A stretch of 64,000 bases of DNA from positions 1 to 64,000 of the forward strand of contig JARLIK010000017.1 of assembly GCA_031291755.1 (NCBI GenBank), in the 5' to 3' direction. The notes beneath the pieces are model-generated. The model was not told the origin of the DNA. It did no database searches and worked only from the letters and a program-made list of their open reading frames with translations. Within the stretch, counting starts at the first letter, position 1. Every line of letters starts with the position of its first letter. Positions 4,216 to 25,805 of this stretch are shown in pieces. This DNA comes from Acidocella sp. (GTDB lineage Bacteria > Pseudomonadota > Alphaproteobacteria > Acetobacterales > Acetobacteraceae). Position numbers and translations under genes: made by a program.

Positions 4216-6426
<2,211 letters not shown>

Positions 6427-6622: not shown

Positions 6623-9600
6623 GTGTCCCGCCTTTTCATCAGCCATGCGAGCGTCGACAACGTGTCCGCCGTCGCGATCCGGGACTGGCTGAAGGCGAAC
6701 GGCTGGGATGAGGTGTTTCTCGACATCGACCCGGCGCGCGGTATCAGCGCCGGCGAGCGCTGGGAACGCGCCCTGAATGAGGCAGCATCGCGCTGCGAAG
6801 CCATTGTTTTCATCATCTCAGCCGCCTGGCTGAACTCGCCATGGTGCCTGAAAGAATTTCACCTGGCCCGGCGGCTGAACAAGCGGCTGTTCGGCGTGCT
6901 GGTCGAGCCGATTGAGCTTGCCAGCCTGCCCGACCAATTGACCGGCGCCTGGCAGGTGGTCGATCTGGTGTCCGGGCAGGATGGCATGACAATGCGCGTC
7001 ATCCTGCCGCACACGCATGACGAGGCGCATGTCACTTTTTCCCGGGAAGGGCTGGACCGGCTGCGGCGCGGCCTGACCAAGGCTGGGCTCGACCCGCGCT
7101 TCTTCGCCTGGCCGCCCGCCGCCGACCCGGACCGCTCCCCTTACCCTGGGCTGAAGCCGCTGGAAGCCGAGGACGCCGGCATTTTCTTTGGCCGCGAGGC
7201 GCCGATTGTCGATACGCTGGACACGCTGCGCGGCTTGCGTGAACTGGCGCCACCCCGGATCATGGTGATTCTCGGTGCTTCCGGCAGCGGCAAATCATCC
7301 TTTTTACGCGCTGGACTGCTGCCCCGCCTGACCCGCGACGACCGCAATTTTCTGCCCCTGCCCGTCATCCGGCCCGACCGCGCGGCGATCAGTGGCGATG
7401 CCGGGCTGGTGGCCGCCATTGAGAGCGCCTTCACCGCGCATGGCATCACCAAACGCCGCGCCGATTTGAAGCGCAGTGTCGCGGAAGGTGCTGTGGGGGT
7501 GAAAGCGCTGCTGCAGGAGCTGGTCAATATCAGTTTCAAACGCACCCTGGCTGACAGCCCCGCCGCCCTGCCGCCGTCGGTGATCATCGCCGTCGACCAG
7601 GCCGAGGAACTCTTCGCCGAGGATGGCGCCACCGAAGGGGCCACGCTGCTGACCCTGCTGCGCGAGCTGGTGCGCGACGATACGCCCGCAATCATCGTGC
7701 TGTTCACCATCCGCTCGGATTCCTACGACCGGCTGGAAACCGCCAAACCACTGGAAGGCGTCAAGCAACACGCCATCCCGCTACTCCCCATGCCGCGCGG
7801 CGCTTACCAGACCGTGATTGAGGCGCCCGCCGCCCGGCTCTCGGAAACCCCGCGCAAGCTCACCATCCACCCCCAGCTCACCCAACGCCTGCTGCACGAC
7901 ATTGAAAAAGGCGGTGCCAGCGACGCGCTGCCGCTGCTGGCCTTTACGCTCGAGCAATTATATCTTGATTACGGTCGCGGCAGCGGTGAATTGCGGCTCG
8001 CCGATTACGAGAATTTCAACGGCATCGGCGGCGCCATCAGCGCCGCTGTCGAACGGGCCTTCATCGCGGCTGACAAGGACCACCGGATTCCGCGCGATCG
8101 TGACGCCCGATTGCTGCTGCTGCGGCGCGGCTTCATCCCCTGGCTCGCCGGGATTGACCCGGAAACCGGCAGCCCCCGGCGGCGCGTGGCGCGGCGCGCC
8201 GATGTACCGCCGGAATCGTTGCCGTTGATCGATTTGCTGGTTGAGCAGCGGCTGCTCACCACCGACCGAGTGGCCCTCGGCGAGGGCGAGCACCGGCATT
8301 ATGAAATCACCATCGAGCCAGCGCATGAAGCGCTGCTGCGGCAATGGGGCTTGCTGGCCGGCTGGCTGAGTGAGGATATCACTGCCCTGTCGATTCTTGA
8401 GACCGTCAAAGCCGCCGCCCGCGATTATGCCGCCAATGACGAAGCCGCCGACTGGCTGAACCATGCCGGCGGCCGGTTGGAGGATGCCGAGCGGGTTTTG
8501 GCAGAGCGGCCTGATCTCGCCTTGGAATTATCCGCCAATGCCCGCACCTATCTGCGCCGTTGCCGCGAGCGTGAGAACGCCCGGCGCAACGCGGCCCTGC
8601 GGCGCGCCTGGCAAATCGCCACCGGCGCCCTTATCAGCGCGGTGGTAGCGATCGGCCTGTTTGTCTATGCCCAGATCGAAGCCAACCAGGCCAATCAAAA
8701 TCTCGCTTTGGCCGATGCCACCTTGGAATCCGCCACCAACATCATCAATGATTTTGACAATCCTGACAGCGCCAACGTCACCAACGAGCTGGACGATATT
8801 CAAAACATCACAGTCCAGGCCAAGAAGTTCGCCAGCTTCGACCCGCTCGGCGTCGCCAATCTCGAACTCGTCGCGGCGCAAACCGAACGCAACACCACCG
8901 CCTCGCCGATCGCGGTCTTGAATGCGGCGATTCAGGTTTTAACCAATGTCCGCCAGCAGAATCCCAACTCCATTGAGATCGAATTCGACTATGACCGCGC
9001 CATACTGGCGCGCGCGCGCAATGAGGAGGACGCCCAGCAACTCAACCTCGCCAGCAGCGATTTCGCCGCCAGCATCAAGGACATGGAGAGCCTGCTGAAT
9101 GCGCAGATGACACCGGACACCAGGCGCAGTTTTCTGGTCAATCTCGGCCACGCCGATGAAGATTTTAACGATTTGCTGCTGCAGCAAACCACCGCGCAAG
9201 ACCCCACAAGCCTGGCGCCCGCCGTGGCGGCCATCACAGCGGCGCAAAAAGTTTTCAGCGATTATAAATCCGAATACCCCACCGACCCGACCGGACCGGC
9301 CGAGCTGGCCTGGGCCGATTTGAAATCCGGCGACATCGCGCGGCGCGAAGGTAACTATCAGGATGCCTTGAGCATATTCACCAGCGCCTATAACGCGATG
9401 AGCGCGATTCCACGGGCGTCCCTCAATGAAAATCCAATCTGGCCGCGTGATCTCGCCATCGTCGATCTGAATCTAGGTGACATCCAACTCCGGCTTGGTA
9501 ATTTCGCCGGTGCCTCAACCTCGTTTCAAAACGCCGACCAGATCATCCTGTCGCTGCCGGTCACCATCGAGGTGGAATCGGATCATGGGTTTGCCATGGA

Positions 9601-10102
9601 TCTGATCGGATTTTCCAATTACCTCTGCGCCGAGCAAAGCGGCAACCCGCAATGCCAGGCCGATGCCACCAATGCGCTGGCGACAGCGGTGAGCATCCGG
9701 GCCGATGTCCATGCGCGGGCGCCAAGGCGCGTGCAATGGGCGCAGGATGTGGAACATACCAATGCGACACTGGCGGCCCTGAATGGTCTGAAAGCCATGA
9801 ATGCCGCTGATGATACCAGCGCCATTCATGATTTCGCCCAGGCCGCCAGTATCACCAAGCCGCTGGCGGAAGGGCCCGAGCTTGAAAATGATCTGGAGAT
9901 TTTCCGCCTGGCGGATTTCTATGTCCACGAGGGCGAGGCCGAAGCGCAGGCCAAACAAAATGATGCCGCCAAGCAAAGCTTCAGCGCAGCACAGGCCAGC
10001 CTGCAATCGCTTCCCAAAGACAGCGGCGGTACCGTACCGCTGAACAAGCTGACCACCCCGCTGACCACCCGCCTGCAACAAGACCTCAGCAAACTGCCAT
10101 AA
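6623..10102 (+). CDS. TIR - nSTAND NTPase - transmembrane - TPR-like protein (candidate immunity/signalling protein)
   Basis: A 1159-residue multidomain protein. Residues 1-~130 are a TIR domain (MSRLFISHASVDN...), with a Glu at 78 in SPWCLKEF, the position used by NAD-cleaving TIR enzymes. From ~172 the PYPGLKPLEAEDAGIFFGRE motif introduces a novel-STAND (nSTAND1) ATPase. Its Walker A is GASGSGKSS near residues 218-226 and its Walker B is SVIIAVDQAEELF near 321. A single membrane helix lies near 663-690 (IATGALISAVVAIGLFVYA). The rest is an alpha-helical, TPR-like repeat region. The start is GTG, with GGAG 12 nt upstream. TIR-STAND fusions are often antiphage or cell-death switches, but no phage-defence neighbours are seen here. 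Function inferred. Confidence 0.85.
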   Translation: MSRLFISHASVDNVSAVAIRDWLKANGWDEVFLDIDPARGISAGERWERALNEAASRCEAIVFIISAAWLNSPWCLKEFHLARRLNKRLFGVLVEPIELASLPDQLTGAWQVVDLVSGQDGMTMRVILPHTHDEAHVTFSREGLDRLRRGLTKAGLDPRFFAWPPAADPDRSPYPGLKPLEAEDAGIFFGREAPIVDTLDTLRGLRELAPPRIMVILGASGSGKSSFLRAGLLPRLTRDDRNFLPLPVIRPDRAAISGDAGLVAAIESAFTAHGITKRRADLKRSVAEGAVGVKALLQELVNISFKRTLADSPAALPPSVIIAVDQAEELFAEDGATEGATLLTLLRELVRDDTPAIIVLFTIRSDSYDRLETAKPLEGVKQHAIPLLPMPRGAYQTVIEAPAARLSETPRKLTIHPQLTQRLLHDIEKGGASDALPLLAFTLEQLYLDYGRGSGELRLADYENFNGIGGAISAAVERAFIAADKDHRIPRDRDARLLLLRRGFIPWLAGIDPETGSPRRRVARRADVPPESLPLIDLLVEQRLLTTDRVALGEGEHRHYEITIEPAHEALLRQWGLLAGWLSEDITALSILETVKAAARDYAANDEAADWLNHAGGRLEDAERVLAERPDLALELSANARTYLRRCRERENARRNAALRRAWQIATGALISAVVAIGLFVYAQIEANQANQNLALADATLESATNIINDFDNPDSANVTNELDDIQNITVQAKKFASFDPLGVANLELVAAQTERNTTASPIAVLNAAIQVLTNVRQQNPNSIEIEFDYDRAILARARNEEDAQQLNLASSDFAASIKDMESLLNAQMTPDTRRSFLVNLGHADEDFNDLLLQQTTAQDPTSLAPAVAAITAAQKVFSDYKSEYPTDPTGPAELAWADLKSGDIARREGNYQDALSIFTSAYNAMSAIPRASLNENPIWPRDLAIVDLNLGDIQLRLGNFAGASTSFQNADQIILSLPVTIEVESDHGFAMDLIGFSNYLCAEQSGNPQCQADATNALATAVSIRADVHARAPRRVQWAQDVEHTNATLAALNGLKAMNAADDTSAIHDFAQAASITKPLAEGPELENDLEIFRLADFYVHEGEAEAQAKQNDAAKQSFSAAQASLQSLPKDSGGTVPLNKLTTPLTTRLQQDLSKLP

Positions 10103-10109
10103 AAATTCG

Positions 10110-11324
10110 TTACCGGACCGGCGCCAACTTTGCTTCACTAGTTTTTTTCCGGGTGATTTTGCGGCTCAGCCTGATCGCCGGTTCATCAACACCCCACTGA
10201 AACAACAGCGCCACGGGAACCGTCGCGCCAAGCCCCGCCAGCCAGGCCAGCAGCATGGCGATACCCGCGCCAAATTTGAGCATCAGCAAAAACACCGCAC
10301 TGCCCAGCGAAATCATGATCGCGAAATGCAGCAGATAAACCGAATAGGACAAGCGTCCCAGAAACTGAAAAACCGCCGTGTCAAAAACCCGCTGCAATAC
10401 TGGTGTCAGCAAAATACCAAGAAATATCAGTATCGCGCCCCATTGTGTCTGGGCGCGGTAAATCTCGGGAATATGAAAAACCCCGCCGGGGAAAATTGCG
10501 TCGGGCAGCGGCACATTCAATGTATCAGCATCGCTCAGCCAGATGCCCGCAACGATCATCGCAACCCCGAACCATTGCCGCTTGGGAAACACCAGCAGCC
10601 TCGCCAGCCGTTCATGCCGGGATATTTGCGCCAGCAGATGCCCGATCGTGAACAGCGCCAGCTCATCAAAGCCGAAGACGAACAATGATAAAAACAGCAA
10701 GGCCCCATACAGCCACGCCCCAAAGCGCTGCGCCCAGACCAGGCCGATGATCCAGAGCGAGCCATAAAGTTCGACATGTAGGGTCCAGACTGGCGGGTCC
10801 AGCGCATGCAACTGGTCCGGCAAACCGGGAAACTGAAACAGGCTGTTCTGAAAATATCCAACAAACAGCGATGCGCCGGATATATCCGCCCACAGCCCGG
10901 TCAGCGCCGGAAGCGCAGTCATTTTCAGCAGCCAGTCCGAAGCCGCCGCCACCGCCACCGCATGCGTAACCCCCCAGCCCGCCGAGGCCAGCAAGGCCGA
11001 AAACAGCACCGCCGGAAAATATGGCAGACCAATGCGCACCAGCCGCCTGACGATATTCACCAGAATGTCGCCCGGCATTTTTTCAAAACTATAGGTCAGC
11101 ACATAACCCGAGATCAGGAAAAACAGGCAAAGCGAAATAAAGCTGTTCGAGAAAAATCCCAGTTGCCAGAAGCCCTCGGGATAAAACGCCAGCGCGTAAT
11201 GCGCGAACATAACATGCAAAGCGCTAATGCCGCGCAAGCCATCCAGAAAAACAATCCGGCCATGCCTGACCACCGCCTGAGGCGGTTGTTCAACCTCTGG
11301 CAATCGTGCTTGCGCAACATTCAT
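10110..11324 (-). CDS. Acyltransferase 3 family membrane protein
   Basis: A 404-residue polytopic protein opening with a short cytoplasmic tail, then RIVFLDGLRGISALHVMFAHYALAF. This is the R-x10-H signature of acyltransferase family 3 (OafA/NodX/ExoZ-like), enzymes that O-acylate surface sugars at the inner membrane. About ten membrane helices follow, with the family's YSVYLLHFAI segment near the C-terminus. It is convergent with the TIR gene, and the stops are only a few bases apart. The sugar substrate is unknown, and no polysaccharide genes are adjacent. Confidence 0.85.
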   Translation of the reverse strand: MNVAQARLPEVEQPPQAVVRHGRIVFLDGLRGISALHVMFAHYALAFYPEGFWQLGFFSNSFISLCLFFLISGYVLTYSFEKMPGDILVNIVRRLVRIGLPYFPAVLFSALLASAGWGVTHAVAVAAASDWLLKMTALPALTGLWADISGASLFVGYFQNSLFQFPGLPDQLHALDPPVWTLHVELYGSLWIIGLVWAQRFGAWLYGALLFLSLFVFGFDELALFTIGHLLAQISRHERLARLLVFPKRQWFGVAMIVAGIWLSDADTLNVPLPDAIFPGGVFHIPEIYRAQTQWGAILIFLGILLTPVLQRVFDTAVFQFLGRLSYSVYLLHFAIMISLGSAVFLLMLKFGAGIAMLLAWLAGLGATVPVALLFQWGVDEPAIRLSRKITRKKTSEAKLAPVR

Positions 11325-18011: not shown

Positions 18012-18025
18012 TTGCTTTAGATCAA
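18012..18025. promoter_or_regulatory. FNR/FixK-like box upstream of the radical SAM operon
   Basis: TTGCT-TTAG-ATCAA matches nine of ten specified bases of the FNR/FixK consensus TTGAT-N4-ATCAA. It overlaps a second perfect palindrome, TAGATCA-AA-TGATCTA (18018-18033). It sits ~165 bp before the pqqD-like start in an otherwise gene-free 220-bp stretch. Anaerobic control of the operon is inferred. Confidence 0.42.
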
Positions 18026-18187
18026 ATGATCTATGGCAGCACTGGTCTAGAGCCGCCCTCGTGACTCGGTTGCTCTTCTTACAACCCTGACTTTGCGGTA
18101 TGACATAAGAAGGACGAAAGATTTGGGTGGTTTTTTTGAGGTAGCTATCCTGACCTATTTTATGAATTTTTGAAAAGAGAGGTCGTT

Positions 18188-18448
18188 ATGCAACTGGCCA
18201 AGCATGTAAAATTCCGCGAGGAAAAATTCGGTGGCGTTTTATTCGAAACCCAATCGGAGAAGGTTTACACGTTAAATGCCGCAGCCGCCGCCGTGATCCG
18301 CGAAATCAAACCCGGCTGTGACAGTGCGCAGATCGCCGCTAAACTGCAGCAAGATTTCCAGGACCCCACCGGGAAAATCGAACAGGATGTTCATGCGTTA
18401 ATCGTTTCGCTTCAGCAAAAAGGTCTGCTGACGGACGATGCGCAATGA
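18188..18448 (+). CDS. PqqD-like RiPP recognition protein
   Basis: An 86-residue protein of the PqqD/RRE family. MQLAKHVKFREEKFGGVLFE, then VYTLNAAAAAVIREI, then helices ending VHALIVSLQQKGLL reproduce the winged-helix pattern that binds leader peptides and delivers them to a radical SAM enzyme. ATG at 18188 follows GAGAGG at 7-8 nt. A TTG 18 bp upstream is less likely. It heads an operon with three radical SAM genes, a prenyltransferase gene and a small peptide gene. The next gene starts within its stop codon (ATGA overlap). The expected partner is the peptide at 21319-21477. Confidence 0.88.
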   Translation: MQLAKHVKFREEKFGGVLFETQSEKVYTLNAAAAAVIREIKPGCDSAQIAAKLQQDFQDPTGKIEQDVHALIVSLQQKGLLTDDAQ

Positions 18449-19425
18449 GCGAAGCGCCAACCATCCCGGCCACCACGCCCGCCACCACCACCTCCGGCAG
18501 CTTGCGCGCCCCGCTTTATGTGGCGTGGCAGATCACCAACGAATGTAATCTGGCCTGCCTGCACTGCATCGAGGAGAGCGGACCCGGCAAAGCCTTCCCT
18601 GACGAGCTGAGCGAACAGCAAACCTTCGACGTGCTGCGCCAGCTCGTTGAATATGATGTCCCGTATTTGTCGTTTTCGGGCGGCGAGCCAATGATCCACC
18701 CGCATTTCTTCGAAATGGTTGACTATGTTTGCAGCCGGGGCATCGAGCTTAAAGTCGAGACCAATGGCCATTACCTCACCCCGGAGGCTTGTGCGCGGCT
18801 GAAGGAGCTTGGTGTCAAAGCGGTGCAGGTGAGCCTCGATGGCGCAACCGCAGAATCATTCAACCGGATGCGGGTGCGTGGCAATTTTGACCTTGTCGTC
18901 GAGGGAATTCGCAACCTGCAAACCGCCGGCGTGCCAATTGAGATCAATTATTCCCCCACCAGCTTCAACGCCCATGAAATCGGCATCGCCATTGATCTGG
19001 CTTATAATCTAGGCGCCCAGAGTTTTTACACCGGGCGCACCATGTACACCGGCAATGCGGTGAAAACCTGGCGGCACCTGACGCCGACAGAGCCGCAATA
19101 TGAAGAGGTGTTCAAAACATTGCATGAAAAAACCGCAGCTTATAATGGCCGCATGCGGGTGCATTTTCATGAAATGGGTCTGCTGGACGAGCTTCGCTAC
19201 CGTTTGCATCATCCAGCCGCTTTGCTGATTGTATTGCCCAACGGTCTGGTCAAGCTGATCAACGCCCTGCCGTTTGTCTGCGGCGATTTGCGTAAAGATA
19301 CCTTGGGCGAAATCTGGGACAATTTCCAACGTGCCTGGCAGGACCCACAGGTTTCGGAATTTGTCGATACCTTGGCGCGCGAACCCGGCACAACCTCATT
19401 GCTGCATAAATGGGTTTATCTGTAA
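18445..19425 (+). CDS. Radical SAM peptide maturase-like protein 1 (degenerate SPASM)
   Basis: A 326-residue radical SAM enzyme related to the PqqE/MftC branch. The [4Fe-4S] motif is C34-x3-C38-x2-C41 (ECNLACLHC), followed by SFSGGEP, the SAM-binding glycine-rich strand, and VQVSLDGAT. The C-terminal part keeps the SPASM scaffold order (VLPNGLVKLINALPFVCGDL, then LGEIWDNFQRAW). Only one Cys of the usual seven or so remains, so classical auxiliary clusters seem absent. It resembles the two other radical SAM proteins in this operon along its length, which suggests tandem duplication. A role in modifying the PqqA-like peptide is inferred. A haem-type modification enzyme is an alternative. Confidence 0.85.
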   Translation: MSEAPTIPATTPATTTSGSLRAPLYVAWQITNECNLACLHCIEESGPGKAFPDELSEQQTFDVLRQLVEYDVPYLSFSGGEPMIHPHFFEMVDYVCSRGIELKVETNGHYLTPEACARLKELGVKAVQVSLDGATAESFNRMRVRGNFDLVVEGIRNLQTAGVPIEINYSPTSFNAHEIGIAIDLAYNLGAQSFYTGRTMYTGNAVKTWRHLTPTEPQYEEVFKTLHEKTAAYNGRMRVHFHEMGLLDELRYRLHHPAALLIVLPNGLVKLINALPFVCGDLRKDTLGEIWDNFQRAWQDPQVSEFVDTLAREPGTTSLLHKWVYL

Positions 19426-20363
19426 CGCCGCCGCATATGCGGCAAACCCCGGCGGCAGCCCCGAGCGTGCTGCGCCGGTTGTTTTTGGTGATGAGCCTGG
19501 TGCGCTACCGGTTCTTTCTCTACGCTGGCCTGCTGCCTTATGTGCTGGGCGCGGCCTGGGCGTACCGGATCACCGGCCATCTCGACGCCGCGATTTTCTG
19601 GAGCGGCCTCGCGGGCGTCGGGCTGGCGGTCGTCGGGGTCGAAGCGTTCAATGAGTATTTTGACGCCCGCATGGGAACCGACCGGGTGTTCAACCCGCAG
19701 GATTTACCACCGATGTCCGATGCCGTGCTGTGGCTGGGCATCGCGGGCTTCGCCGGAGCCTTGGGTGTGGGGATTTATCTCACCCTCAGCGCAGGCTGGC
19801 CGATCCTGGCATTTGCCGGCTTAGGCGGTCTGGCCGCGGTGTTTTACGTGGCGCCGCCGATCCGCTGGGCTTATCGCGGCTTAGGCGAAACCGTCATTGC
19901 ACTTTCATACGGCCCCTGGATGGTGCTCGGCAGCCTGTATTTGCACGCCGGGCTGTTTGCCTGGGGCGCCCTTTGGGCCTCGCTGGTGCCGGGTTTCATG
20001 ATCATGTCACTGGCGGTGGTGAATGCCATTCCGGACTTTCATCAAGACCGGCTGGTCGGCAAGCGTAACCTGGTGGTGCGCGTGGGCCGTGAACGCGCGG
20101 TGTGGCTATACTTAGGTCTCGCCGCGCTGGCTTTGCTGGTGGTGGTAGCAGGCGTCATCGCCGGGGTATTTCCGATGATCAGCCTAGCCACCTTGGCCGC
20201 GCTGCCGCTGTTGATCTCCAGCGGACGCAGCGCGTTCGGCACCTTCACCACGCCGCGGCTATTCGTTCCGGCCATCCGGCGGATTGTGGCGTGCTATCTG
20301 GTGACGGCGGCAGTGTTCACCCTAACAATCGGGCTGCAAGCCTGGGTAAGCCACATGCCATGA
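19410..20363 (+). CDS. UbiA/MenA-family polyprenyltransferase
   Basis: A 317-residue integral membrane aromatic prenyltransferase with about eight to nine helices. The first Asp-rich motif is N81-EYF-D85-ARMGT-D91 and the second is AIPDFHQDRLVGKRN near residues 205-218. The second resembles the D-x3-D-x3-GK motif of MenA (1,4-dihydroxy-2-naphthoate prenyltransferase) more than UbiA. Such enzymes attach a polyprenyl tail to an aromatic acceptor during quinone synthesis. The start overlaps the upstream radical SAM stop by 16 bases, and its own stop overlaps the next start (ATGA), so it is cotranscribed and translationally coupled. Its presence among RiPP-type genes is unusual and suggests that the peptide-derived product is prenylated. 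Confidence 0.88.
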   Translation: MGLSVTPPHMRQTPAAAPSVLRRLFLVMSLVRYRFFLYAGLLPYVLGAAWAYRITGHLDAAIFWSGLAGVGLAVVGVEAFNEYFDARMGTDRVFNPQDLPPMSDAVLWLGIAGFAGALGVGIYLTLSAGWPILAFAGLGGLAAVFYVAPPIRWAYRGLGETVIALSYGPWMVLGSLYLHAGLFAWGALWASLVPGFMIMSLAVVNAIPDFHQDRLVGKRNLVVRVGRERAVWLYLGLAALALLVVVAGVIAGVFPMISLATLAALPLLISSGRSAFGTFTTPRLFVPAIRRIVACYLVTAAVFTLTIGLQAWVSHMP

Positions 20364-21331
20364 ACCTAATCGAGAGATTGCGGGCGCCGCTGTTTGTCTC
20401 CTGGCAGATGACCCGCGCCTGCGATCTGGCCTGTTTGCATTGCTGTACCGATTCCGCCCCCGGCAAAAAATTGCCAAACGAGCTGACCGCCGATGAGGCA
20501 ATGCGGCTGGCGGCTGACATTGTGGCCAACGGCGTGCCCTATGTGATGCTGTGCGGTGGCGAGCCGCTGATTGTGCCGCATTTTTTTGAAGTGGCGGAGT
20601 TTTTGGGCCGGGCCGGTATTCAGCTGAAAATCGAAACCAACGGCCAGTTGTTTGACGCCGCCGTGGCAAAACGATTGGCAAAGCTGCCGATCCGCTCGGT
20701 GCAGATCAGCCTCGATGGCGATACCCAGAACACCTATGAACGCCAACGCCCCGGCGCCTCGCTGGCCAAGGCGCACGCAGCCTGCCGTGCGGTGCGCGAG
20801 GCCGGCTTGCCGCTTGAAGTTACCTTCGCGCCAACCCGGCTGAATATGCACGAGGCGGAAGCAGTTATCGCGCGGGCGCAAGCCCTTGGGGCCTTCCGTT
20901 GCAACACCGGCATGCTGATGAACATCGGCCGCGCCGCCAAGCTATGGCCAAAAATCGCCGCCACCCCGGAGGCGTACCAGACCTTTAAGCAAATGCTGGA
21001 TATCCAAGCCCCGCTTTTGGCAGGTTCACTCGAAATTTGTTACAATCCGTTCACGGTTGAGGCCGGGCTGCAATTGAGCCTTGAAACGCCACCGGCCACC
21101 ATGCTGATATTACCAAACGGCATGGTCAAAATCGCCGCAGCAATTGGTTGTATTTGTGCTGATCTTCGGCGTATAAGTTTTACCGAAGCCTGGGAAAACT
21201 ATTGCGCCGCCTGGCATGATGACGGCGTAATAGGGGCGATTGAGCGGGCGATTACTGATAGCGCCTCGCATGCTGAGGCGAATGTTTTGACGTTCATTTC
21301 TAATGGAGAGTTTGAAAAATGCCTGACATGA
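20360..21331 (+). CDS. Radical SAM peptide maturase-like protein 2 (degenerate SPASM)
   Basis: A 323-residue paralogue of the flanking radical SAM proteins. The cluster motif C21-x3-C25-x2-C28 (CDLACLHC) is followed by LCGGEPL and VQISLDGDT. In the C-terminal region ILPNGMVKIAAAIGCICADL occupies the SPASM position, with two close Cys but not the canonical spacing, and FTEAWENYCAAW follows. The ATG at 20360 overlaps the prenyltransferase stop. The tail of this gene overlaps the start of the small peptide gene by 13 bases in another frame. Confidence 0.85.
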   Translation: MNLIERLRAPLFVSWQMTRACDLACLHCCTDSAPGKKLPNELTADEAMRLAADIVANGVPYVMLCGGEPLIVPHFFEVAEFLGRAGIQLKIETNGQLFDAAVAKRLAKLPIRSVQISLDGDTQNTYERQRPGASLAKAHAACRAVREAGLPLEVTFAPTRLNMHEAEAVIARAQALGAFRCNTGMLMNIGRAAKLWPKIAATPEAYQTFKQMLDIQAPLLAGSLEICYNPFTVEAGLQLSLETPPATMLILPNGMVKIAAAIGCICADLRRISFTEAWENYCAAWHDDGVIGAIERAITDSASHAEANVLTFISNGEFEKCLT

Positions 21332-21477
21332 TTTCCAAGGTTCCTGGCGAGACAAAGAAGACTGAAGACCTATTGGATAACAAGACACAACAGGCAAAGT
21401 CGCCGATGTGGGAAACCCCCCTGCTGGAAGACGTCTCTGAACAGGTCATGGCGCAGCCCTACATTCGTTTCACTTAG
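21319..21477 (+). CDS. PqqA-like RiPP precursor peptide (52 aa), candidate
   Basis: A short gene between two radical SAM genes. GGAGAG lies 8 nt before its ATG. The first ~28 residues are charged and Lys/Glu-rich, as in a leader. The C-terminal 23 residues run from MWETPLLEDV to QPYIRFT and recall the W-x2-P...E...Y layout of PqqA. Candidate modified residues are E37, E41, Y48 and F51, and W31 is at the leader edge. In PqqA the Glu-Tyr pair is spaced E-x3-Y. Here E41 and Y48 are spaced E-x6-Y, so the chemistry must differ if it is analogous. No Cys is present. Identification rests on position, RBS and pattern. Confidence 0.72.
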   Translation: MPDMISKVPGETKKTEDLLDNKTQQAKSPMWETPLLEDVSEQVMAQPYIRFT

Positions 21478-21494
21478 TATCGTCTGAACCGGCT

Positions 21495-22454
21495 ATGTCT
21501 GGGCGGTCGTTTGACTCCTATCGATCGCCGTTGTTCCTCGCTTGGCAGCTAACCAACGGGTGTGAAGCCCGTTGTTTAGCGTGTTGTGAGGAATCCGGCC
21601 CCGGCCATGCTTGGCGTGACGAATTGGGGCGTGACGATGCCATGGGCATCGTCCGGCAAATAATCGACCTTGGTATTCCCTATGTCGCCTTCGGCGGTGG
21701 TGAACCGCTGGCGGTTCCGCATTGCTGGGAAATTTTTGAAGCGCTGGCCGCCGCCGGTATCGCCATCAAGCTCGAAACGAACGGCAGCTTGATCGACGAT
21801 GCCGCCGCAGCGCGATTGCACGCGATGGGCGTCGATTGCGTGCAGATTTCTCTTGATGGCGCGACCTCCGCCACCCACGCACTCGGGCGGCCTGGCAGCA
21901 GTTTCACTGCGGCACTAGCAGCCATCGACCGGCTGGCAGCACTCGGCACCCGGCCACAACTGGTGTTTGTACCGACCAAACTGAATATCCACGACATCGT
22001 CCCGGCTTTTGACCTGGCGGTACAGCATGGTTGCAGCGCTTTCGTCACCGGCCCGCTGATGCGGCTTGGCCGCGCTGCTCTGGCATGGGACACTCTGGCC
22101 TGTGATAATGCCACATGGCAGCAGGCCGAAATATCATTACGCGCACGTGCCGCAGCCGTGCCCTCAGATATCGCGCTGTCGATCTATCCCTGGGATATAT
22201 TGACCGAGCTTGAGCGCCGCCTGGAATCCCCGCAGGCCATGTTGCTGGTGGTCCCTAACGGCAAGGTAAAGCTCCTGAACGCCCTGCCCTTCGCCCCCGC
22301 CGACTTAAAACAGCAATCGCTGCTCGAAGCGTGGCAGGCTTACCAAAACGCCTGGCGCACCCAAACCGTACGGGACTTCGTGACCAATTGCCAAACCAAT
22401 CCTAATTTGCTCAAGCATGCCAACGAGACCTGGGATATGGCCGAGCTGGTTTAA
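21495..22454 (+). CDS. Radical SAM peptide maturase-like protein 3 (SPASM cysteines lost)
   Basis: A 319-residue third paralogue. The cluster motif is C23-x3-C27-x2-C30 (CEARCLAC), followed by AFGGGEPL and VQISLDGAT. The C-terminal counterpart of the SPASM region (VVPNGKVKLLNALPFAPADL, LLEAWQAYQNAW) has no Cys at all. It starts 17 bp after the peptide stop and ends 23 bp before the convergent frdB stop. The three enzymes share the S-x-PG-(K/H) and (K/E)-ETNG blocks. The chemistry each performs is unknown. Successive steps on one peptide or its product seem likely. Confidence 0.85.
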   Translation: MSGRSFDSYRSPLFLAWQLTNGCEARCLACCEESGPGHAWRDELGRDDAMGIVRQIIDLGIPYVAFGGGEPLAVPHCWEIFEALAAAGIAIKLETNGSLIDDAAAARLHAMGVDCVQISLDGATSATHALGRPGSSFTAALAAIDRLAALGTRPQLVFVPTKLNIHDIVPAFDLAVQHGCSAFVTGPLMRLGRAALAWDTLACDNATWQQAEISLRARAAAVPSDIALSIYPWDILTELERRLESPQAMLLVVPNGKVKLLNALPFAPADLKQQSLLEAWQAYQNAWRTQTVRDFVTNCQTNPNLLKHANETWDMAELV

Positions 22455-22477: not shown

Positions 22478-23233
22478 TTACCCGACGGGTTTCAAGAAAT
22501 TCGGCAGCAGATTATGAACGGCGGCGAATGCCATCTTTCTGCGCAGCATGCCTAACTGGTCCTGCAAGGGAATTTGTTTGGGGCATACATCCTCGCACGC
22601 CAGTAGCCCCATGCAACCAAATATGCCCTGATCGCTGCCGACCAGATCGAAGTAAGCCTGCGTTGTGCGCTTATCACGGGGATCGAGGATGAAGCGGGCC
22701 AGCCGGTTAAGGGCAACCGCGCCGATAAAATCCTCACGCATGATGGCGGTACCACAAGCGGCAACGCAGCAGCCGCATTCGATGCAACGATCGAGTTCGT
22801 AAATCTCCTCGGCCAATGCATTGTCCATCCGCTCTTCCTGCGCCTGCGGGTCAAATTCTTTGTCTGTGTGAATCCACGACTCGACCTTCTGATACATCTG
22901 GCGGAACCATGTTCCGGTATCGACCGACAAATCGGCAATCAACTTGAAGGCCGGCAACGGCAGCAAGGTAATTTCGTCAGGCAGGTCCTTGGTTTTAGTC
23001 CGGCAGGCCAGCCCAGGCCGGCCGTTGATCACCATGGCGCACGCCCCGCAGATACCCGCCCGGCAGCAAAAATCAAACTGCAATGACGGGTCCTGCTCGG
23101 CACGGATCCTGTTGAGCGCGATGAATAATGTCATCGACTCAGTTTCTTCCAGGCTGAACGCCTCCTGGCGAGGATGCGATTGCGGGTCCTGCGGATTGAA
23201 GCGGAAGATATTGAACGTCAAAGGTCTCTGCAT
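22478..23233 (-). CDS. frdB: Fumarate reductase (quinol) iron-sulfur subunit
   Basis: A 251-residue electron-transfer subunit. The plant-type [2Fe-2S] site is C57-x4-C62-x2-C65...C77 (CCRAGICGAC...C). The [4Fe-4S] site is seen in RCIECGCCVAAC, and the third cluster's ligands in FGCMGLLACEDVCPK. It passes electrons between FrdA and the dihaem anchor FrdC. It is the last gene of frdCAB, the gene order of Wolinella succinogenes. Assignment to fumarate reductase rather than succinate dehydrogenase rests on the type of complex. Direction cannot be proved from sequence. Confidence 0.93.
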   Translation of the reverse strand: MQRPLTFNIFRFNPQDPQSHPRQEAFSLEETESMTLFIALNRIRAEQDPSLQFDFCCRAGICGACAMVINGRPGLACRTKTKDLPDEITLLPLPAFKLIADLSVDTGTWFRQMYQKVESWIHTDKEFDPQAQEERMDNALAEEIYELDRCIECGCCVAACGTAIMREDFIGAVALNRLARFILDPRDKRTTQAYFDLVGSDQGIFGCMGLLACEDVCPKQIPLQDQLGMLRRKMAFAAVHNLLPNFLKPVG

Positions 23234-23251: not shown

Positions 23252-25105
23252 CTAGACTTGCTTCAGGCTTGGCTGGGGCGGAGTTGCCATCGGAATGATC
23301 TTGCCGCCACCATATCCGCGTTCACCCGGCGGCAACTCGAACGACGGTGTGGCCGGCTCATAGCTTAATGCCGGCAAATCGTCAGACTCGTTTTTCCATC
23401 TCGCCAGGGTCCGGTTCAGCCAGTCACGATCGTTACGGTCGGGGAAATCCTCGCGGGTATGGGCACCGCGGGACTCAGTACGCATCAAAGCCCCCTGGGT
23501 GACACACAGCGCCAGCTTGACCATGCCCTCGATCTTGAGCGCCAGAGCAAGTTCCGGATTAGCGCCGATACCGTTCGACTGCAGCCCAACCCGCCTGGCC
23601 CGCGCCAGCGTACCTTTCAAAGTCTCTATGGATTCACCGAGATCTTTGCCATTGCGGAAAATCCCGGCGCCCTTGATCAACGCGTCATGCATCTCCTCAC
23701 GCACTGCAAAGGCGTTTTCGCAGCCATGGATTCCACCGATAAGGTCCTTGATCCGGCCTTCCTGTTTCGCATAAGCATCGCGCACGGCGGCCATCTTGAC
23801 CACCGTATCGGCGCCCTTGAGAAATTCCACCACCTTGGCGCCCACCACCATGCCGGCGACCACCGTCTCCGCCAGGGAATTACCGCCCAGGCGATTAAAG
23901 CCGTGCATATCCCAGCACGACGCCTCGCCGGCCGCGAACAGACCCTTCAACCCATAGACAGCGCCGTCCTTATTGGTGCGCACGCCCGCCATGCAGTAAT
24001 GCTGGGTCGGGCGCACCGGGATCAACTGCGTGATCGGATCGACGCCCAGGAAGTTTTCGCAAATATCCTTCACTTCGCGCAGATTGGTGTTGATGTGGTG
24101 GGCCCCGAGATGGCGGATATCCAGCCACAGATGATCACCATAGGAGCCTTTGACGCCAAAGCCTTTCCGCATATGCTCGGTCATCCGGCGCGCCACCACG
24201 TCGCGGGAGGCCAACTCAGCTTTGTCCGGCTCGTAATCAGGCATGAAACGATATTGGTTAACGTCAAGCAGCGTGCCGCCGTCGCCGCGGCAGCCTTCCG
24301 TCACCAGAATATCGGTCGGCACGATGCCGGTGGGATGAAACTGAATCGCCTCCGGATTACCGATCGGTACGATGCCGGTATCAAGCGCCGCGATATGGGC
24401 GCCGCCATCATTGATCACCGCATTGGTGGAGGCCCGGTAGAGTCGCCCAAACCCGCCACTGGCGATCAGCGTGGCGCGGGCCAGATACGCCCGAAGCCCG
24501 CCGGTCTTGAGGCAGCGCACAATGGCGCCCAGGCAGGTTTCGCCGTCATGGATGAGGGCTATGACCTCGGTCTTGTCATGCACATCGACGCCCAGTTGGG
24601 CGGCCCGGTTATCCAGCGCATACAGTACCGAATGGCCGGTGCCATCGGAGGTGTAGCAGGTCCGCCATTTGGCCGTGCCGCCGAAGGAGCGCGAGTGGAT
24701 CAACCCCTCATTCTCTGCCTTCTCAATCGCGGTGAACGGCTTACCGCCTTTGTAATAAGTCTGCTCACCCGGCACCACGCGGCTCCACGGCACCCCCCAG
24801 AAGGCCATCTGGCGCATCGCGATCGGCGCGTTATCCACAAAGATGCGCGCCACCTCCTGATCAGCGCCCCAGTCAGACCCCTTCACCGTGTCGGCAAAAT
24901 GCACGTCCGGGCTATCGCCCTCGCCCATCGCCGAGTTGCCGAGTGCTGCCTGCATGCCGCCTTGCGCCGCCGCGGAGTGCGAGCGTCTGGCCGGAACCAG
25001 CGACAAACAAACAACCGAAAAACCATTCCCCGCCGCTTCAATGGCAACCCGCTCGCCGGCCAAGCCGGCGCCAATGCACAGCAAATCGGTTTGGAAGATT
25101 TGCAT
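23252..25105 (-). CDS. frdA: Fumarate reductase flavoprotein subunit
   Basis: A 617-residue flavoprotein. The FAD dinucleotide motif is LLCIGAGLAGERVAIEA. H43 in RRSHSAAAQGG is the expected covalent FAD attachment site. IVPTDILVTEGCRGDGG, QHYCMAGVRTN and HGFNRLGGNSLAETVV carry the substrate-binding and FAD-binding residues of the family. It interconverts fumarate and succinate at the inner face of the membrane. It lies between frdC and frdB with short gaps, forming one operon. The closest pattern I recognise is that of epsilon- and deltaproteobacterial enzymes, which suggests horizontal origin. Confidence 0.93.
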   Translation of the reverse strand: MQIFQTDLLCIGAGLAGERVAIEAAGNGFSVVCLSLVPARRSHSAAAQGGMQAALGNSAMGEGDSPDVHFADTVKGSDWGADQEVARIFVDNAPIAMRQMAFWGVPWSRVVPGEQTYYKGGKPFTAIEKAENEGLIHSRSFGGTAKWRTCYTSDGTGHSVLYALDNRAAQLGVDVHDKTEVIALIHDGETCLGAIVRCLKTGGLRAYLARATLIASGGFGRLYRASTNAVINDGGAHIAALDTGIVPIGNPEAIQFHPTGIVPTDILVTEGCRGDGGTLLDVNQYRFMPDYEPDKAELASRDVVARRMTEHMRKGFGVKGSYGDHLWLDIRHLGAHHINTNLREVKDICENFLGVDPITQLIPVRPTQHYCMAGVRTNKDGAVYGLKGLFAAGEASCWDMHGFNRLGGNSLAETVVAGMVVGAKVVEFLKGADTVVKMAAVRDAYAKQEGRIKDLIGGIHGCENAFAVREEMHDALIKGAGIFRNGKDLGESIETLKGTLARARRVGLQSNGIGANPELALALKIEGMVKLALCVTQGALMRTESRGAHTREDFPDRNDRDWLNRTLARWKNESDDLPALSYEPATPSFELPPGERGYGGGKIIPMATPPQPSLKQV

Positions 25106-25118
25106 TTCTATTTCTTCC

Positions 25119-25805
25119 TTAATGCAACGGGAGGAACATGAAGCGCGCCAGCGTGACCAATCCGATAATGATGAGGATAATGGTCAGCATGCTTTCCTTG
25201 AGATGGAACCCCTGGCGGCGGGCGCGAGATAAAAAGCCCCATTTCACCGCGATCCGGTAAAAGCCAATGCCGACATGCAGTTCAACCAGCGGCAACAGCA
25301 CCAGATAAAACACCAGCCACGTACCGCTCTGGATGCGCGCCGCACTTTTGGCGGCGGTGATCGGCAGATCCGTCAGCACCACCCACATATGAGCGGAACC
25401 CATGATCAGAATAACCATGGCGGTGCCAACCTGAATCAGCCACAGCCAAGTGTCCTGATGATGCAGGCGCGTGGCGTTCGCCCACATGGCTGTTTGCTGG
25501 CGGGTGGTCCACGGCATCTTGCGGGCGGCCAGAACGAAATGCAGCAGGAACACCAGGAAGATGCCAGGACCGATGATGTAAACCAGCCTGGTAACTTCAA
25601 AGAACCAGGCGATGAAGTTCATCACCGATGGACCGATGATGACGCTGGAGACCAGAAAAAGATGGCTCCACATGAATATAATCAGCACCACGCCGGACAA
25701 CATCTGCAGCCAGTCCATATAGGCCGATGTCTTCCCCAGGCGGCGATGGGTATCTTCGGCGGTCAACGGTACAGTCACAAAATGCTCCGGCCATTGGAAA
25801 AGCAC
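25119..25805 (-). CDS. frdC: Fumarate reductase cytochrome b subunit (dihaem, type B)
   Basis: A 228-residue membrane anchor with five helices. Four helix-borne histidines, H48 (WSHLF), H89 (LLHFVLAARK), H139 (GSAHMWV) and H177 (VELHVGIG), match the two-haem ligands of Wolinella FrdC. E70 (WFFEVTRL) matches its Glu66, needed for menaquinol oxidation. The YRIAVKWG signature follows the last ligand. This class of complex normally works with a low-potential quinone such as menaquinone. The gene is preceded by a weak FNR-like site. Proteobacterial relatives of this organism are ubiquinone users, so the partner quinone is an open question. Confidence 0.92.
   Translation of the reverse strand: MLFQWPEHFVTVPLTAEDTHRRLGKTSAYMDWLQMLSGVVLIIFMWSHLFLVSSVIIGPSVMNFIAWFFEVTRLVYIIGPGIFLVFLLHFVLAARKMPWTTRQQTAMWANATRLHHQDTWLWLIQVGTAMVILIMGSAHMWVVLTDLPITAAKSAARIQSGTWLVFYLVLLPLVELHVGIGFYRIAVKWGFLSRARRQGFHLKESMLTIILIIIGLVTLARFMFLPLH

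Follow-up and report, generated by a model that had tools for sequence, protein, structure and literature searches.

The first 64,000 nucleotides of contig JARLIK010000017.1 of Acidocella sp. (assembly GCA_031291755.1), called the window here, carry an operon of six overlapping or closely spaced genes on the forward strand (18188-22454). With a probability of about 0.6 it encodes a pathway of the RiPP type (ribosomally synthesized and post-translationally modified peptide) whose product is a membrane quinone of low potential, (demethyl)menaquinone being the most likely type. The genes encode, in order, a PqqD-like protein, a first radical S-adenosylmethionine (SAM) enzyme, a UbiA-superfamily prenyltransferase, a second radical SAM enzyme, a precursor peptide and a third radical SAM enzyme (Table 1). 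A narrower proposal is a third menaquinone route, independent of the classical Men and the futalosine pathways, in which the radical SAM enzymes would build the naphthoquinone ring from peptide residues before prenylation and the product would be a respiratory and photosynthetic carrier; it is tentative and stands at somewhat under even odds. The six-gene set on one strand, with its 52-residue peptide, had been proposed in the first-pass annotation from the sequence alone and is borne out by the coordinates and by Pfam. Its gene content is that of a RiPP locus, with a precursor that has a leader and a conserved core lying beside a RiPP recognition element (RRE) and maturases.

One scan of contigs from 84,980 species gave 51 distinct loci encoding a relative of the operon prenyltransferase, and these loci and the window are the 52 sources of the conservation counts; L010, a duplicate of L013, and L011 and L012, which have distant UbiA genes, are left out. 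The six-gene set is complete in 41 of the 52 sources and has an identical order in all 41, which confirms that the operon is real and not a chance arrangement; four more Elusimicrobiota genomes also have the full set. Among the 11 incomplete sources, five run into a contig end (L021, L047, L049, L050, L053) and six are rearranged (L057-L062), the latter with the order peptide-PqqD-radical SAM 1-UbiA, L059 being cut before the peptide. The contigs of L057 and L062 stop at most 0.7 kb past the UbiA gene, and four of these six minimal variants can be seen to have no radical SAM 2 or 3 gene further downstream. They come from metagenome-assembled genomes (MAGs) labelled Elusimicrobia, Deltaproteobacteria, Planctomycetota and Bacillota, and one such genome, G342, has MenG. 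PqqD-like homologues of 82-91 residues are present in 49 of the 52 sources, the other three being cut by contig ends.

The hosts, as labelled, are Acidocella, Acidiphilium, Rhodopila, Rhodovibrio sodomensis, Rhodovibrionaceae, Azospirillaceae, Kiloniellales, beta- and gammaproteobacterial records, many Elusimicrobia and a few others; one MAG of the beta/gamma type, labelled Bordetella parapertussis, is probably a mislabelled bin. A near-identical prenyltransferase is found in 2 of 299 sampled genomes of the order, the window's own (G000) and G211 of the same genus, and four distant relatives are present in a plasmid collection, three with a MenA-type annotation. Two loci have unusual features. 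On the complete chromosome CP096137.1 (L054), the matches to radical SAM 2 and 3 (8894-9807 and 10019-10926) are both broken in two, as frameshifts from sequencing errors or decay would do, and in L119 (G440) the gap between the peptide and radical SAM 3 is about 1.6 kb, wider than in the other loci examined.

The first-pass annotation made its model depend on a peptide gene conserved beside the radical SAM genes of relatives, and this gene is conserved, both in the full sets and in its tail. All 49 readable peptides end in PYIRFT followed by the stop codon, encoded by 40 different nucleotide tails. All but one of the 490 codons in the last ten positions encode the residue of VMAQPYIRFT, and more than one codon is used for every residue with a choice. 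The invariant tail suggests purifying selection, such as would be expected on a peptide that gives rise to a cofactor and not on the precursor of an antibiotic, which tends to diversify. The sole core substitution is M to T (VTAQPYIRFT; L023, 8169-8276) in G308, which is also the only operon genome with MenB and MenD over the cut-off, these two genes sharing a contig; the coincidence is suggestive of relaxed constraint, in a single case. The leader pattern W..P.(L/M/I)(E/D)(D/E)(V/I)S is retained, with exceptions. No Pfam or NCBIfam model matched the precursor at E 0.1. The earlier description of the peptide as PqqA-like holds for the W..P leader, which we take to resemble leaders of PqqD clients, and does not extend to the invariant core, which is different and matches no PqqA model.

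The best NCBIfam models for the prenyltransferase are MenA models, with scores below their cut-offs (best 93.8 against 264; TIGR00751 58.5 against 102.15). In a tree of 27 rows, drawn with midpoint rooting and with several long branches, the operon prenyltransferases group with the MenA rows, are split from UbiA and CyoE with a support of 100/100 and form their own sub-clade (99/100). The genome's own CyoE-like protein is separated from the operon enzyme with full support. Clustering with ubiquinone enzymes, which according to the first-pass annotation would weaken the model, is not what the tree gives, as it puts the enzyme on the MenA side instead. Human UBIAD1 is the nearest solved relative both in sequence (1.2e-11) and in fold (TM-scores 0.72 and 0.80). 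UBIAD1 is an MK-4 (menaquinone-4) synthase, and the kinship with MenA and UBIAD1 points to naphthoquinone-type substrates.

All three radical SAM proteins carry the CxxxCxxC motif, and radical SAM 1 is the only one common to the full and minimal variants. Further cysteines are fully conserved at position 279 of radical SAM 1 (23 rows), 142 of radical SAM 2 (19 rows) and 31 of radical SAM 3 (19 rows), while Cys 29, 227 and 266 of radical SAM 2 occur in 79-89% of its 19 aligned rows. PqqE and MftC carry cysteine-rich C-terminal SPASM domains, and no conserved cysteine-rich C-terminal pattern of this kind is found in the alignments of radical SAM 1-3. MftC is the best NCBIfam model for radical SAM 1, 2 and 3 (138.4, 114 and 105 bits, cut-off 265), and AhbD, NirJ and NirJ2 are also among the top matches, far below their curated cut-offs. 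SkfB and PqqE are the nearest solved relatives of radical SAM 1 and 3 by sequence, as well as the nearest folds to a structural model of radical SAM 1 (pLDDT 87.4).

Genes of the known menaquinone pathways were searched in 51 operon genomes (G000, G211, in which L013 lies, and the genomes of L014-L063 except L033). PF02621, the family of MqnA and MqnD, is found in none of the 51, while 4 of 14 controls are positive (MqnC and MqnE were not searched). Only G308 has MenD over the cut-off; weaker MenD matches (E<=0.001) occur in 43 of the 51, G308 included, the best of the others reaching 91.8 bits against a cut-off of 244.2, and would be what other thiamine-diphosphate enzymes give. MenB is also over its cut-off in G308 and in no other of the 51 genomes. 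Quinone data were found for two host genera, Rhodopila and Rhodovibrio. Rhodopila globiformis (L014, G299) carries the operon and has neither MenD or MenB over the cut-off nor MqnA/D. In the accessible parts of the sources, this species is reported to make menaquinone-9 (MK-9), ubiquinone-9 (UQ-9) and the rhodoquinones RQ-9 and RQ-10 (PMC12542754), a cryo-EM structure from it has menaquinone at the Q_A site (PMC9640540), and its published genome has 7.25 Mb (PMC7005127), compared with 7.2 Mb searched here. For Rhodovibrio salinarum, the accessible table lists Q-10 (ubiquinone-10) and MK-10, and for the other tabulated Rhodovibrionaceae only ubiquinones (PMC11316597).

In the phylum Elusimicrobiota, a complete chromosome (G338, L054) has the full operon and no match to MenB, MenD, PF02621 or MenG/UbiE. 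Within the 2.0 of its 3.8 Mb that were examined, it encodes a haem-copper oxidase and two sets of genes similar to those of E. coli complex I, of which one includes NuoF. With complex I, G338 would be expected to depend on a quinone, and no candidate maker other than the operon was seen in searches that did not include plastoquinone-type genes. The interpretation of the first-pass annotation is supported in part: its prenylated, quinone-like carrier gains support from the hosts, which make or should need a low-potential quinone and in which key genes of the known menaquinone pathways were not found; the crosslinking and excision of a tyrosine, and the product itself, found no support.

In the proposed mechanism, the PqqD-like protein would bind the W..P.LEDVS leader and present the peptide, and radical SAM 1 would make the first change in the aromatic C-terminal core (PYIRFT). 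Radical SAM 2 and 3, in the full version only, would make further changes that lead to an aromatic head group, and a general protease encoded outside the operon would free it. In the membrane, the UbiA enzyme would attach to the head group a polyprenyl chain, which in most Elusimicrobiota hosts may be made by an upstream polyprenyl-diphosphate synthase. UbiE/MenG, where present, would C-methylate the ring. The quinol would serve users that require a low potential, be it fumarate reductase, the machinery of extracellular electron transfer or, in Rhodopila, the reaction centre with its Q_A site. Beyond the gene content, all these steps are inferred.

Several observations weigh against a menaquinone-type product. 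There is no established carbon map or reaction scheme that leads from VMAQPYIRFT to a naphthoquinone, and the operon itself has no protease or ring oxidase gene. Draft genomes and MAGs make up most of the operon hosts (the completeness of G000 is 84%); single absences mean little in drafts, and the argument rests on their repetition over 50 hosts. Rhodovibrio sodomensis carries the operon (L033) and lies outside the Men/Mqn search. MenB matches at E<=1e-60 occur in six of the 51 genomes, G308 included, and the five below the cut-off are four Rhodopila and G309. In the two Rhodopila genomes examined, BadI is the best model for the MenB-like gene (464.8 and 461.3 bits, slightly under the cut-off of 467.6), which scores less well against the MenB model (318.9 and 307 bits, cut-off 342.7); in G299 it is flanked by frames that by eye are acyl-CoA dehydrogenase-like and SDR-like (short-chain dehydrogenase/reductase). 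The MenB-like genes of G309 score 286 and 209 bits. The sister genome G211 has the operon without the fumarate reductase flavoprotein encoded beside it in the window.

Further points against it come from a sample of 149 Elusimicrobiota genomes. The operon prenyltransferase is found at E<1e-120 in eight of them (two more matches, near 1e-52, fall outside the operon clade), PF02621 in nine (one weak) and MenB at E<=1e-60 in none. The operon and PF02621 never coincide, which is little informative, since an overlap of only about 0.5 is expected by chance. Cytochrome bd occurs in 14 genomes, two with the operon (one a weak match), five with PF02621 and seven with neither; as a quinone marker it weakened the case, its positives not coinciding with the genomes that have either the operon or PF02621. 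MenG/UbiE at E<1e-35 is present in 19 genomes, eight with PF02621, one with the minimal operon (G342) and ten with neither. Strong matches are thus found in one of eight operon-bearing genomes (G316 has a weak one, 6.6e-21) versus eight of nine PF02621 genomes, and in none of the seven sampled genomes with the full operon. Because this match is absent, the full-operon Elusimicrobiota may not make methylated menaquinone; it seems that their ring stays without the methyl group or that a different methyltransferase adds it.

The ten genomes that have MenG without PF02621, MenB or the operon (G351, G375, G377, G392, G404, G427, G433, G459, G467 and G488; L104-L113) have no operon within about 10 kb on either side of MenG (9.4 kb and 0.4 kb in G459), and only the neighbourhood L104 has a radical SAM match, a distant one. 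Seven of the ten also have cytochrome bd. They may have another unexplained quinone source or scavenge quinones. Since other Elusimicrobiota have MenG or cytochrome bd with neither a known pathway nor the operon, a missing known pathway does not by itself implicate the operon.

Other products of the operon were considered. It might make a new lipoquinone other than menaquinone, such as a tyrosine-derived prenylated benzoquinone or an unmethylated naphthoquinone, the MK-9 of Rhodopila coming from elsewhere. This is unlikely, although it is the most probable of the alternatives: it agrees with the seven full-operon Elusimicrobiota that have no strong MenG/UbiE, a tyrosine-derived benzoquinone is by reasoning chemically simpler, and the complex I of G338 should need some quinone. 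It requires a second pathway of unknown nature for the MK-9 of R. globiformis, and the MenA/UBIAD1 kinship favours naphthoquinone-type substrates. The missing MenG is not decisive either, as the accessible part of a 2026 survey gives 39 species with measured menaquinone in which menG/ubiE was not found (PMC13386864). Rhodoquinone as the product, suggested by the RQ-9 and RQ-10 of R. globiformis (PMC12542754, in part), has a very low probability: RquA makes rhodoquinone from ubiquinone according to the accessible part of PMC9814641, and the accessible table shows no rhodoquinone for Rhodovibrio salinarum (PMC11316597). The sampled full-operon Elusimicrobiota also have no strong match to UbiE. 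Ubiquinone synthesis needs this enzyme.

A prenylated lipopeptide natural product without a redox role (a signal, an antibiotic or a membrane-active RiPP) is improbable. The sporadic distribution of the operon, with only G000 and G211 positive among the 299 genomes of the order, and the kinship of radical SAM 1 and 3 with SkfB, a sactipeptide maturase, would suit such a product; unlike in diversifying antibiotics, however, the core is invariant across phyla save for one substitution, no recurring exporter or immunity gene is seen among the annotated neighbours (a part of all neighbours), and the operon is found where the tested menaquinone genes are missing, with genes of quinone-linked enzymes nearby. 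A modified-haem pathway comes to mind because the UbiA superfamily includes haem O synthase and because of the matches of the three radical SAM enzymes to AhbD and NirJ. These matches are far below cut-off, like that to MftC, the prenyltransferase is apart from the CyoE-like protein, and we know of no haem route that uses an invariant precursor peptide, so that this reading is highly improbable. The low-potential quinone remains the preferred product of the operon.

Table 1. Operon genes and neighbouring features in the window, with their positions and supporting matches.
Feature	Position	Strand	Evidence
PqqD-like RRE, 86 aa	18188..18448	+	ATG 18188; PF05402 E 1e-11
Radical SAM enzyme 1, 326 aa	18445..19425	+	Pfam Radical_SAM E 1.8e-25; CxxxCxxC plus invariant Cys279
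UbiA-superfamily prenyltransferase, MenA/UBIAD1-like, 317 aa	19410..20363	+	PF01040 E 1.1e-19; motifs NEYFD...GTD and DFHQD..VGK
Radical SAM enzyme 2, 323 aa	20360..21331	+	Pfam Radical_SAM E 5.2e-23
Precursor peptide, 52 aa	21319..21477	+	leader W..P.LEDVSEQ; core VMAQPYIRFT up to stop
Ten-residue core VMAQPYIRFT	21445..21474	+	residue kept in 489/490 codons, 49 copies
Radical SAM enzyme 3, 319 aa	21495..22454	+	Pfam Radical_SAM E 6.5e-21; CxxxCxxCC
Fumarate reductase iron-sulfur subunit FrdB	22478..23233	-	NF010071 420.6 bits, cut-off 264
Fumarate reductase flavoprotein FrdA	23252..25105	-	NF006383 1029.8 bits, cut-off 663
Fumarate reductase cytochrome b FrdC	25119..25805	-	NF010072 157.3 bits, below cut-off 187; PF01127 2.6e-12
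FNR/FixK-like box TTGCTTTAGATCAA	18012..18025	.	9/10 consensus positions

The genes around the operon include possible suppliers and users of its product. Of the 49 sources with a visible PqqD gene, 23 have a polyprenyl-diphosphate synthase gene that ends 120-259 bp before it. All 23 loci are from Elusimicrobia or are labelled only "bacterium", and the similar L041 and L052 have no such gene; the set rests on BLAST clusters, with three of the 23 tested by Pfam and matching PF00348, and one of these three scores best against models of the long-chain type, below their cut-offs. No adjacent synthase is found in the proteobacterial loci (L028 has one 5.5 kb upstream), which would fit their having such an enzyme for ubiquinone. 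Fumarate reductase and extracellular electron transfer enzymes use low-potential quinols. The fumarate reductase encoded next to the operon in the window is a possible user of the operon product, and the models matched by its FrdB and FrdA are presumably those of the epsilon-type (menaquinol) enzyme of Wolinella and Campylobacter. FrdA at E<=1e-170 is found in 1 of the 299 genomes of the order, the window's genome. In L024 the same three frd genes, all over curated cut-offs, lie 2.4 kb downstream of the operon with two genes between, and MtrB/PioB genes of extracellular electron transfer are at most 1.5 kb from the operon in L018, L025 and L038.

The FNR/FixK-like box upstream of the operon begins 176 bp before the PqqD start and sits at an imperfect palindrome (18013-18038), and its score is reached by none of 300 shuffles. 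A score of 9 or 10 is found in 3 of 18 proteobacterial sources (9/10 in the window and L036, a perfect box in L019), while the other 15 score at most 8, two of them exactly 8. This hints at low-oxygen control of the operon in some hosts only. Other neighbours are a peroxidase gene upstream in both Acidocella-type genomes (window 4219-6360, about 12 kb away; L013 3179-5326, 1.4 kb away), tested with PF00141 in L013, the window gene being its BLAST relative, and a HemN-type radical SAM gene (PF04055 plus HemN_C; L024 4439-5845), about 0.9 kb upstream of the operon with one gene between, which might fit with anaerobic haem synthesis. A PF03364 (Polyketide_cyc) gene, which we take to be COQ10-like, lies downstream on the other strand in the alphaproteobacterial L020, L021 and L036 (Pfam tested in L036).

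The first-pass annotation knew of no described pathway with this gene set, and searches of the open-access PMC literature gave no account of a quinone route with PqqD, radical SAM and UbiA proteins (subscription papers and bioRxiv are largely outside this coverage). To our knowledge, lipoquinone head groups with a known synthesis are all built from small metabolites. If a membrane electron carrier does start from a ribosomally made peptide, this would be a new principle that links RiPP chemistry to core bioenergetics. The accessible part of the 2026 survey of 26,264 bacterial genomes counts four species that have measured menaquinone but no pathway genes and, citing Gloeobacter and Anthocerotibacter, suggests that menaquinone can be made by another pathway; its main text, as far as accessible, names neither Rhodopila nor Rhodovibrio. 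Unexplained menaquinone gaps appear to be rare, since literature and genome predictions agree there for about 98% of 4,853 species (PMC13386864). The operon is a concrete and testable candidate for a missing route, and R. globiformis DSM 161, a type strain in culture, carries it. Such a route would explain the menaquinone of Rhodopila, perhaps that of Rhodovibrio, and the complex I of some Elusimicrobiota without known quinone genes, and would alter how respiration is predicted from the genomes of Elusimicrobiota and some Pseudomonadota.

In the PQQ pathway, a redox cofactor is made from a ribosomal peptide, PqqA, with the chaperone PqqD and the radical SAM enzyme PqqE. The operon likewise has a small peptide, a PqqD-family chaperone and radical SAM maturases together, and differs by having three radical SAM enzymes without a cysteine-rich C-terminus, a membrane prenyltransferase and a different core at the extreme C-terminus. 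Identity with this pathway was rejected, as the PqqD equivalog TIGR03859 reaches 36.2 bits (cut-off 46), the PqqE equivalog TIGR02109 at most 83.6 bits (cut-off 381.35) and PqqA has no match. Mycofactocin (MftA, MftB, MftC) is similar in its RRE partner, its radical SAM enzyme, for which MftC is the best model of all three operon proteins, and the invariant C-terminal core of MftA; the operon has a different peptide tail, and prenylation in place of the later mycofactocin steps. Identity with mycofactocin was also rejected (MftC 138.4 against 265, MftB 21.2 against 33). SkfB, the nearest solved relative already mentioned, forms a thioether in a killing factor, whereas the operon peptide has no cysteine in its core. 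With MenA and UBIAD1 the prenyltransferase shares fold, motifs and side of the tree, but it forms a clade of its own, scores below all matching MenA cut-offs and is encoded beside RiPP rather than men or mqn genes. The classical Men and futalosine (Mqn) pathways share with the operon the proposed class of end product and the prenylation step, whereas MqnA/D, MenD and MenB are not found over the cut-off in 50 of the 51 operon hosts. By the features tested, the operon falls outside PQQ, mycofactocin, the MenA equivalogs and the Men and futalosine pathways, and it has the look of a pathway for a RiPP cofactor to which a MenA-type step has been added.

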